Below, piece after piece: positions 30,939 to 33,125 of a DNA stretch of 64,000 nt. Each line of letters opens with the position of its first letter. Within the stretch, counting starts at the first letter, position 1. The position numbers and the translations under genes were made by a program. The stretch is from an uncultured Clostridia bacterium (lineage in GTDB: Bacteria > Bacillota > Clostridia > Christensenellales > Aristaeellaceae): positions 1 to 64,000 of the forward strand of contig CANQEW010000002.1 in assembly GCA_947596085.1 (NCBI GenBank), read 5' to 3'. The notes beneath the pieces were generated by a model, which saw only the letters and a program-made list of their open reading frames with translations, ran no database searches and was not told the DNA's origin.

Positions 30939-32114
30939 ATGCAAAAGCGCTACGACCGCACGATGCGCGCCTGCTTCGCGAGCTACATCGTGCAGGCGGT
31001 GATCAACAACTTCGCGCCGCTGCTGTTTGTGACGTTTCACGACAGCTTCGGCATTCCGCTTTCGAAGATCACGCTGCTGGTGACGTTCAATTTCCTGTTG
31101 CAGCTGGTGATTGACGCGGCCTCGGTGAAGTTCCTGGACCGCATCGGCTACCGCGCGGCGGCGGTGCTGGCCAACGCCTGCTCGGCGGCGGGGCTGGTGC
31201 TGCTGACCGTGCTGCCGGGGGCGACTGCGGATCCCTTCGCGGGGCTGCTGATCGCCGTTTCGATCTGCGCGCTGGGCGGCGGGCTGCTGGAAGTGGTCAT
31301 CAGCCCCATCGTGGAGGCCTGCCCGTCGGACGGTAAAGAGCGCGCCATGAGCATGCTGCACTCCTTCTATTGCTGGGGCCACGTTGCCGTGGTGCTGATT
31401 TCCACGCTGTTCTTCGCGGCGTTCGGGCTCGCGCGCTGGCGGATCATGGCGCTGATCTGGGCGGCGCTGCCGCTGATCGTGTCGCTGATGTTTTTGAACG
31501 TGCCCATCGAGGGCCTGCTGGGCGAAGGCGAGCGGGGCATGAGCCTCCGGGAACTGGCCTGCTCGAAAGTGTTCTGGCTGATGTTCGCGGCGATGCTGTG
31601 CAGCGGCGCGAGCGAGCAATCGGTGAGCCAGTGGGCCTCGGTGCTGGCGGAGAAGGGCCTGGGCGTGAGCAAGGCGCTGGGCGATCTGACCGGGCCGATG
31701 CTCTTCGCGATCTGCATGGGAACCGCGCGGCTGCTCTACGGCAAGTTTGGCGACCGCATCCCGCTGAAGAAATTCATGCTGGGAAGCTGCGCGCTGTGCG
31801 TGTTCGCCTATCTGCTGATCGGATTCGCGCCCGTGCCGGCGCTGGGGTTGATCGGCTGCGGAATCTGCGGCTTCTCGGTGGGCATCTTCTGGCCGGGCAC
31901 GGTGAGCCTGGCCTCGGCGGCGATGCGGCGGGGCGGAACGGCGCTGTTCTGCCTGCTGGCGCTGGCGGGGGATCTGGGCTGCTCGGCGGGCCCGACGCTG
32001 GCGGGCATGGTCTCCAGCGCGGCGGGCGACAACATCCGCGCGGGCATACTCGCGGCGGTGGTCTTCCCGGTGCTGTTGATGCTCTGCGTGCTGCGGCAGC
32101 GGAAGATGCGCTGA
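30939..32114 (+). CDS. MFS transporter
   Basis: 391 aa with about 12 membrane helices. The A-motif-like loop is LDRIGYRAAAV after helix 2, and a second similar loop is GKFGDRIPLKKFM after helix 8, as expected of the duplicated MFS fold. Family resemblance is to sugar or fucose-type permeases. The substrate is not deducible. It is 19 nt after the kinase gene with GAGGAGA upstream, so probably under the same promoter. Confidence 0.85.
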   Translation: MQKRYDRTMRACFASYIVQAVINNFAPLLFVTFHDSFGIPLSKITLLVTFNFLLQLVIDAASVKFLDRIGYRAAAVLANACSAAGLVLLTVLPGATADPFAGLLIAVSICALGGGLLEVVISPIVEACPSDGKERAMSMLHSFYCWGHVAVVLISTLFFAAFGLARWRIMALIWAALPLIVSLMFLNVPIEGLLGEGERGMSLRELACSKVFWLMFAAMLCSGASEQSVSQWASVLAEKGLGVSKALGDLTGPMLFAICMGTARLLYGKFGDRIPLKKFMLGSCALCVFAYLLIGFAPVPALGLIGCGICGFSVGIFWPGTVSLASAAMRRGGTALFCLLALAGDLGCSAGPTLAGMVSSAAGDNIRAGILAAVVFPVLLMLCVLRQRKMR

Positions 32115-32149
32115 AGCGCCTCGACAGTATTTATCCACATTTCCCGAGG

Positions 32150-32180
32150 GAGCGAGCGGCATATGGCTATGCCGCCCGCC
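32150..32180 (+). repeat. Left copy of a 31-bp palindromic direct repeat
   Basis: It matches the right copy (32488-32518) at 28 of 31 positions in the same orientation. It folds with an 8-bp stem (32156-32163 with 32168-32175) plus 3 bp beyond one mismatch. Confidence 0.85.
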
Positions 32181-32221
32181 CAGTCTGTCAAAAAACCAAC
32201 CGCAGGACAGCCTGTTCAATC

Positions 32222-32255
32222 AAATCCGACGGCGTGTACGTCGGATTTGTTTTTT
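32222..32255 (+). terminator. Terminator within the hairpin interval
   Basis: A 10-bp perfect stem, AAATCCGACG (32222-32231) with CGTCGGATTT (32239-32248), loop of 7, followed by G and six T. Likely ends the regulator-kinase-MFS transcript. Confidence 0.8.
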
Positions 32256-32294
32256 GTCGGAGTGAAATGCAGACAAAAACGATACCTATGGTCA

Positions 32295-32517
32295 GGTTTC
32301 CGCCCGGAATTTCGTGAGAAATTCAGGAAACCGTAGTCCTCTTCTACGGCGACTTGCTCAAATCTTTGATTTGACCAAGTCGGTCTGCCCTGAAAGGCAG
32401 ACTTGGAAACCCAACGGGTTTCCAACCTTCGCACGGGAAATCCTCAGATTTCCCGTGCAAGTGTCGAAAATACTTTTTCGACACGCTGAGCGGGCGGCAT
32501 ATGCTTATGCCGCCCGC
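32295..32517 (+). repeat. Array of eight consecutive hairpins in non-coding DNA
   Basis: The interval 32115-32597 has no gene. Between 32295 and 32517 nearly every base sits in an inverted repeat. They are: 32295-32332 (7+7 bp with an internal loop); 32331-32349 (6 bp, overlapping the last); 32350-32382 (7+7 bp, one mismatch); 32383-32402 (7 bp); 32403-32425 (10 bp, loop 3); 32431-32458 (12 bp, loop 4); 32461-32484 (10 bp, loop 4); 32490-32517 (12 bp, loop 4). The stems have unrelated sequences, so it is not a simple tandem repeat. Function unknown; no RNA family recognised. Confidence 0.9.
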
Positions 32518-32518
32518 C
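32488..32518 (+). repeat. Right copy of the 31-bp palindromic direct repeat
   Basis: It includes the last hairpin of the array: a 12-bp perfect stem with loop TGCT, followed by CTTTTCT, so it could also act as a terminator upstream of spoIIR. Confidence 0.85.
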
Positions 32519-32597
32519 TTTTCTCACCAGAGCTGCATAAAAATCCCTTCGATTGCCGACGATAGAGACAGATTTTCCCGAAAGAGGTGAAAATGTC

Positions 32598-33125
32598 TTG
32601 ATTCGACGGCTTTTTTCGGCGCTGCTGCTGGCGGCGCTGCTCTGCGGCGGAGCCCGGGCGGCGGAGATGACGGAACTGGTGCGGCTGCAGGTGCGCGCGG
32701 AGAGCGACGATCCCGAGGCGCAGGCGCTCAAGCTCGAGGTGCGCGATGCCTGCCTGCGCGCGGCGGAGCTCTGCCTGGCGGATGCCGCCGGCGCGGACGA
32801 GGCCTACGCGCGCCTCGTCGAGCATCTGGACGACTTCCAGGCCGCCGCCCTTCGCCGCGCGCGGGAGCTGGGCTACGCGGGCCCCGTGCGCGCGGAGACG
32901 GGCGTGTTTGAATTTCCGGACCGCGTGTACGGAAAGCTGCTGGTGCCCGCGGGCGAGTACCGCGCGCTGCGGGTGACCATCGGCGCGGGGGAGGGACACA
33001 ACTGGTGGTGCGTGCTGTATCCATCGCTGTGCCGGCTGAACGAGGCTGACGCGGCGGGAAGGATCGACGCGAAGGGCGTGCTCGAGTGGCTCCGCGAGAA
33101 GCTGTTCGGAGGTGATGCCGCGTGA
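32598..33125 (+). CDS. spoIIR: Stage II sporulation protein R
   Basis: Forespore-secreted signal that activates the SpoIIGA protease and so sigma-E in the mother cell. 175 aa: signal peptide LFSALLLAALLCGGARA, LKLEVRDACL motif, then the family hallmark PAGEYRALRVTIGAGEGHNW followed by WCVLYPSLC. The TTG start is chosen because GAGGTG lies 8 nt upstream and the signal peptide begins there; an in-frame ATG 45 nt earlier would add a charged extension. It overlaps sleB by 4 nt. Confidence 0.9.
   Translation: MIRRLFSALLLAALLCGGARAAEMTELVRLQVRAESDDPEAQALKLEVRDACLRAAELCLADAAGADEAYARLVEHLDDFQAAALRRARELGYAGPVRAETGVFEFPDRVYGKLLVPAGEYRALRVTIGAGEGHNWWCVLYPSLCRLNEADAAGRIDAKGVLEWLREKLFGGDAA

Follow-up and report, generated by a model that had tools for sequence, protein, structure and literature searches.

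Bacterial MITEs (short non-autonomous transposons) such as RUP, Correia and BOX-type elements are short, non-coding and dispersed, with terminal inverted repeats, and BOX is modular. Rickettsia palindromic elements are structured repeats that can sit in frame in protein genes. Terminator hairpins are the target of IS1272, a member of the IS1182 family (PMC4923244; PMC5678879). Its insertion has been described as occurring without duplication (PMC4923244) and as replacing the stem-loop (PMC5678879), and Figure 13 of the latter paper draws another possibility, duplication of the stem-loop through attack at its 5′ feet.

The window analyzed here is a stretch of 64,000 nucleotides from an uncultured Clostridia bacterium, in which an earlier note made from the letters alone had reported a dense array of eight neighboring hairpins in non-coding DNA. 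The array very probably consists of two nested non-autonomous mobile elements, here called A and B, with A carrying B and lying in the terminator of an MFS gene (Table 1).

Results

All eight adjacent stems were recovered within 32295-32517 at the positions reported earlier, and 32403-32425, 32431-32458, 32461-32484 and 32490-32517 are indeed perfect stems of 10, 12, 10 and 12 bp with loops of 3-4 nt. Folded as DNA, 32295-32517 reaches -81 kcal/mol against a mean of -29.5 for shuffled sequences (z = -14.7, none of 200 shuffles being equally stable), and 32150-32530 folded as RNA gives z = -14.4. Two additional stems lie upstream of the eight, at 32221-32249 and 32251-32279. A near-copy of the last stem (32490-32517) lies at 32152-32179, which makes the unit a 307-bp insertion between duplicated terminator hairpins. 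The earlier note had recognized no known RNA family, and the searches agree with it: Rfam 15 returned no family at or above the gathering score in a strict search of the window and of eight loci with copies, and no match in a permissive search of the array. The array is not an assembly artefact, a doubt that the note had raised, because independent genomes carry the same elements; homologous hairpins, whose absence from relatives had been its other concern, were found in the genus and in the family.

Table 1. Features of the hairpin array and its surroundings, in window coordinates.
Feature	Position	Strand	Evidence
MFS transporter gene, its terminator the predicted insertion target	30939..32114	+	ORF list; an uncultured Clostridia genome encodes a protein with 87% identity
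Left target copy: terminator stem-loop GAGCGAGCGGCATATGGCTATGCCGCCCGCC, no T-tract	32150..32180	+	direct-repeat analysis; inverted repeat I7
Element A, assigned as IS1182-type MITE, 307 bp (223 bp minus nested B); ends +/-1 nt	32181..32487	+	dispersed copies; flank duplication; IS with same ends
A left terminal repeat CAGTCTGTCAAAAAA	32181..32195	+	pattern copies; same as end CAGCCTGTCAAAAAA of IS L106
A hairpin 1, then T6, terminator-like	32221..32255	+	inverted-repeat and fold evidence
A hairpin 2	32251..32279	+	
A hairpin 3, first of the eight stems	32295..32332	+	
Small hairpin spanning the A/B junction, second of the eight stems	32333..32349	+	DNA fold
Element B, four-way junction: short closing helix P1 with P2, P3 and P4	32346..32430	+	covariance-model match, 90.3 bits; covariation
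B helix P2, internal C.C mismatch	32350..32382	+	
B helix P3	32383..32402	+	
B helix P4	32403..32425	+	
A hairpin 4	32431..32458	+	
A hairpin 5 and right terminal repeat TTTTTCGACACGCT	32461..32487	+	
Right target copy: terminator stem-loop GAGCGGGCGGCATATGCTTATGCCGCCCGCC with T-tract	32488..32522	+	
spoIIR, downstream, no functional link to array	32598..33125	+	TIGR02837, sole NCBIfam match, 129 bits, below the 152-bit cut-off

The genome of the window is a 3.1-Mb MAG, 87% complete. Searched with 32115-32597, it gave 45 matches, including two copies that exceed 90% identity across most of the unit and about twenty that have blocks in common with it. Without its insert, A measures ~223 bp and has the terminal repeats CAGTCTGTCAAAAA and TTTTTCGACACGCT; it starts CAG[TA]CTGTCAAAAA and finishes TTTTTCGACACGCTG, the two forming imperfect inverted repeats. 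At least 20 relatives of A are present in this genome, with no transposase ORF inside, and related copies are also found in the two congeneric genomes and in several genomes from the family; some copies are degraded. The fold common to the copies has 97.3% of cells paired, with compensatory changes in 18 of 51 pairs, compared with 1-7 when the structure is slid. A same-strand ORF ends shortly upstream of A in most copies, an orientation bias that convergent gene pairs make uncertain.

Where both ends of A could be found (15 copies), 14 have a repeat on both sides, in most of them a clear GC-rich hairpin, and one (L016) has no flank duplication. The flanking hairpin abuts the ends of A and its sequence changes from locus to locus. 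The two flanks aligned with a median score of 50 when taken from the same locus and of 12 when mismatched, and 10 of the 15 copies score above 28, the best value of all mismatched pairs. At the window, only the right copy of the terminator has a T-tract. From the locus-specific flank repeats, together with the T-tract at the right copy only, we infer that A landed in the terminator that follows the MFS gene and that the stem-loop was thereby duplicated. The empty site of this insertion was not recovered in the two congeners, where the neighboring gene differs. Among named genomes searched through their MFS gene, the nearest relative (L224) has other neighbors and therefore offers no empty site either.

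A partner of A was sought among DDE_Tnp_1_6 transposase loci in 200 relatives. One of these (L106, in G025) is a complete IS of 1503 bp with ends CAGCCTGTCAAAAAAGG and CAGCCTGTCAAAGAAGG and a 449-aa transposase, flanked by an exact palindromic direct repeat of 20 bp, AAACTGCCCAAGGGCAGTAA. Another IS, L112, comes from the genus of the window; its ends are CAGACCGTTGACAAAG and CTTTGTCAGTGGGCTG, and a 28-bp terminator palindrome, GTCCCCGCATTCTTTGCGAATGCGGGGG, is duplicated around it. Both transposases match NF033551 (IS1182 family), with 410 and 439 bits for L106 and L112 respectively at a cut-off of 270. The CAG[TA]CTGTCAAAAA ends of A correspond to the CAGCCTGTCAAAAAAGG-type repeats found at both ends of L106, an element of another genus with which A has only ~15 bases in common, all terminal. 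An intact IS with exactly the ends of A was not found in the 87%-complete MAG. The IS1182 genes of that genome were rejected as the direct partner of A, being only remnants whose ends do not match. The best of them, L031 (G000:C124), is a pseudogene with in-frame TGA codons where the intact L112 has W and R. Judged by its ends and target behavior, A was probably mobilized by an IS1182-family transposase acting in trans. The replacement described for IS1272 was not seen at A or at the two complete IS1182 elements, all of which have the stem-loop duplicated, and the elements match the duplicating alternative of PMC5678879 (Figure 13). Its insertion into a duplicated terminator hairpin and its IS1182-type ends lead us to classify A as an IS1182-family MITE, one that enters terminator stem-loops and duplicates them.

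Element B accounts for three of the eight stems, ~85 nt in all. Sixteen copies share one fold, in which a short closing helix (AGG/CCT) bears three arms. Pairing covers 96.7% of their cells, and compensatory changes affect 19 of 32 pairs; none of 500 shuffles came as high. Most pairs are kept in over 90% of 46 distinct copies, and a position can show as many as five pair types. These double changes in A and B are the changed bases in conserved stems that the earlier note had named as the sign of an RNA, and the sign it had named for a mobile element, exact conservation at many loci, was found as well, the sequence being dispersed in its own genome and in relatives. Of 300 related genomes scanned with a covariance model, 34 contain B, and 33 of these belong to the family of the window genome. 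At least nine of the searched genomes reached the scoring cap, with 15 copies or more each, and 90 copies fell into 24 flank contexts. B is common within this gut-bacterial family, and apparently undescribed.

Most copies of A lack B. Where it is present in A, it occupies three positions in both orientations: between hairpins 3 and 4 in the window copy, C10 and C42; reversed inside the hairpin 1 loop, in C12 and C20; and within hairpin 3, again in C12. B also lies in another repeat with AGGCAACACCG ends, and at G000:C67 inside another copy of B. The repeat with AGGCAACACCG[TC]ACAG termini is a second MITE holding B (G000:C8 and C67; L023, L025). In other genomes IS1182 ends stand beside only some B copies, in G040 and G019, and B therefore has other hosts too. 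In G019 (L194-L203) it sits inside an outer helix, CGTTCCCG..CGGGAACG and variants, which itself covaries between copies. One copy (L063:1511-1591, in G018) is inserted in frame and adds 27 codons to a tagaturonate reductase gene, whose 501 residues align to 470 model positions; among 12 copies tested this was the one convincing case. A viral contig (IMGVR_UViG_3300032038_000969) has a copy scoring 79.6 bits between phage-like structural genes (L339:3505-3593), and phages may carry B as a route of spread.

In G086 (2.8 Mb) the B-free sequence AGATCCTTCGC-TNCGCTCAGGATGACA occurs ~145 times and the filled site reads CCTTCGC[ACGGCG...CCAACCT]TCCGCTCAGG, without target duplication and within a small hairpin. 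One to three bases were lost or gained at further B junctions. The G086 repeat, AGATCCTTCGCTNCGCTCAGGATGACA (for example at G086:C16:12172-12239, ~145 copies), is often arranged in facing pairs, and some copies carry B. Among the relatives (L323-L335, in G086, G207, G107 and others) there are RAYT-like genes of ~250 codons, several flanked by GAACCGTCCCC or GGGGACGGTTC repeats, which are likely REP/RAYT systems of this family.

A link between the array and spoIIR, which lies downstream, did not survive comparison: both congeners retain the sequence immediately before spoIIR but lack the array, and a regulatory element tied to spoIIR was rejected on that ground. The retained sequence upstream of spoIIR (L317 and L318 in the congeners) includes the stretch 32533-32590 (TGCATAAAAATCC..TTGCCGACGATAGAGACAGATTTTCCCGAAAGAGG), which has a GCATA motif and a downstream box and by these could be a promoter of the forespore sigma-F type.

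Discussion

The observations at A are most simply ordered by a scheme in which an IS1182-family transposase would insert the element at the foot of a terminator stem-loop, possibly in the form of a cruciform or hairpin, and the stem-loop would be copied to both sides. The far hairpin copy keeps the T-tract, leaving a complete terminator, and A itself adds a terminator-like hairpin (32221-32255). B is a separate cassette that would earlier have inserted into A between hairpins 3 and 4 and then spread with it, perhaps moving as a folded single strand. The folds of both elements may have been selected since folded copies persist or transpose better.

It is extremely improbable that the twin flanking hairpins are tandem terminators or a part of the element itself instead of a target duplication. 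Tandem terminators exist and certain of the flank duplications are imperfect, but the hairpin varies at each locus, pairs only with its own partner and adjoins the element ends, and duplicated hairpins are also found at complete IS1182 copies. A folded transcript as the product, that is, a structured ncRNA or a 3′-UTR regulatory RNA controlling, for example, spoIIR or the MFS gene, is very unlikely. The stems of A and B do covary strongly, and retained G.U-type pairs outnumber A.C mismatches on this strand (29 versus 10); however, two P2 positions common to related copies supply 20 of these 29 cells, and the strand bias therefore does not decide between RNA and single-stranded DNA. Against an RNA product there are the copies downstream of unrelated genes at unrelated loci, the two orientations of B within A, the spoIIR orthologues that lack the array, the absence of an Rfam match, and the transposon-type ends with target duplication. 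The options offered by the earlier note (a structured RNA, a folded single-stranded DNA element or a protein-binding array) are thus partly borne out: the array is mobile DNA with covarying stems, whose folded form may act as RNA or as single-stranded DNA, and not a unique RNA gene.

The covariation could also have arisen without selection, if template-switch correction during replication keeps hairpins perfect and the array has no folded function as either DNA or RNA. Quasi-palindrome correction by template switching is established for bacterial palindromes; compensatory changes can come from it without selection, and many of the stems here are perfect. Such correction should, however, erase mismatches, and one internal pyrimidine-pyrimidine position in P2 of B is unpaired in ~29 of the 46 distinct copies (by our tally), whereas nearly all remaining positions pair in more than 90%. 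Template switching is disfavored as a full account because this mismatch is kept across many genera, and we consider it rather unlikely. The mover of B is a separate matter. Derivation of B from REP/RAYT or IS200/IS605 elements, with a Y1 tyrosine transposase as the mover, would agree with its hairpin structure and its lack of a clear target duplication, and Y1_Tnp genes are present in 112 of 300 relatives, although in these incomplete MAGs their occurrence does not track B. This derivation is decidedly unlikely: repeats of their own, of the GAACCGTCCCC type or otherwise, flank the RAYT-like genes examined, B lies within a few kb at only 1 of 16 such loci, B-rich genomes such as G019 have no Y1_Tnp match, and the genome of the window has only broken Y1_Tnp remnants. 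RAYT/REP was rejected as the mover for this want of linkage. We tentatively regard B, with a confidence somewhat short of even, as a new family of structure-defined mobile cassettes, in which sequence drifts while the fold and one internal mismatch are kept. Such cassettes would insert without clear target duplication, often in hairpin regions of other repeats and of B itself, and would be moved in trans by an enzyme recognizing the fold in single-stranded DNA or in an RNA copy.

Read as A carrying B, an unexplained run of hairpins becomes a concrete instance of miniature elements nested in one another. The loci are also natural cases in which IS1182 relatives duplicate the stem-loop on insertion. 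The IS1272 model draws this outcome, which is the opposite of what was reported for that element, and through these cases the cruciform-target mechanism becomes testable. B is a structured repeat absent from Rfam and could pass for a conserved RNA gene in covariation screens. That covariation here goes with mobility is a caution for RNA discovery. In literature on four-way-junction repeats, nested MITEs and palindromic-target MITEs, neither A nor B was found described.

Compared with known systems, the complete elements L106 and L112 resemble the IS1182-family elements IS1272 and TnSha1 in having a DDE transposase of the same NCBIfam equivalog. A resembles IS1272 and TnSha1 in favoring palindromic stem-loops, frequently those of transcription terminators, with no specificity for the primary sequence. 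It differs in having no transposase gene and in consisting of a chain of hairpins; moreover, the published elements delete or replace the stem-loop without duplication, whereas A duplicates it. With RUP, Correia and BOX-type MITEs, A shares its short, non-coding and dispersed nature, its terminal inverted repeats and, as in BOX, a modular build, but nearly its whole length lies in separate covarying hairpins and a second structured cassette is nested within it. B is similar to Rickettsia palindromic elements in its in-frame insertion in a protein gene (tagaturonate reductase), and probably differs from them in sequence and fold, as it does in host phylum. REP/REPIN sequences with RAYT (PMC3116915) are, like B, hairpin-forming miniature mobile DNA without target duplication, whereas B joins its three hairpins in a four-way junction and has no RAYT gene linked to it. 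Thus, the outer part of the array is apparently known in kind, as an IS1182 MITE, and new in its duplication of the stem-loop, while the inner B is apparently an undescribed structured mobile cassette.
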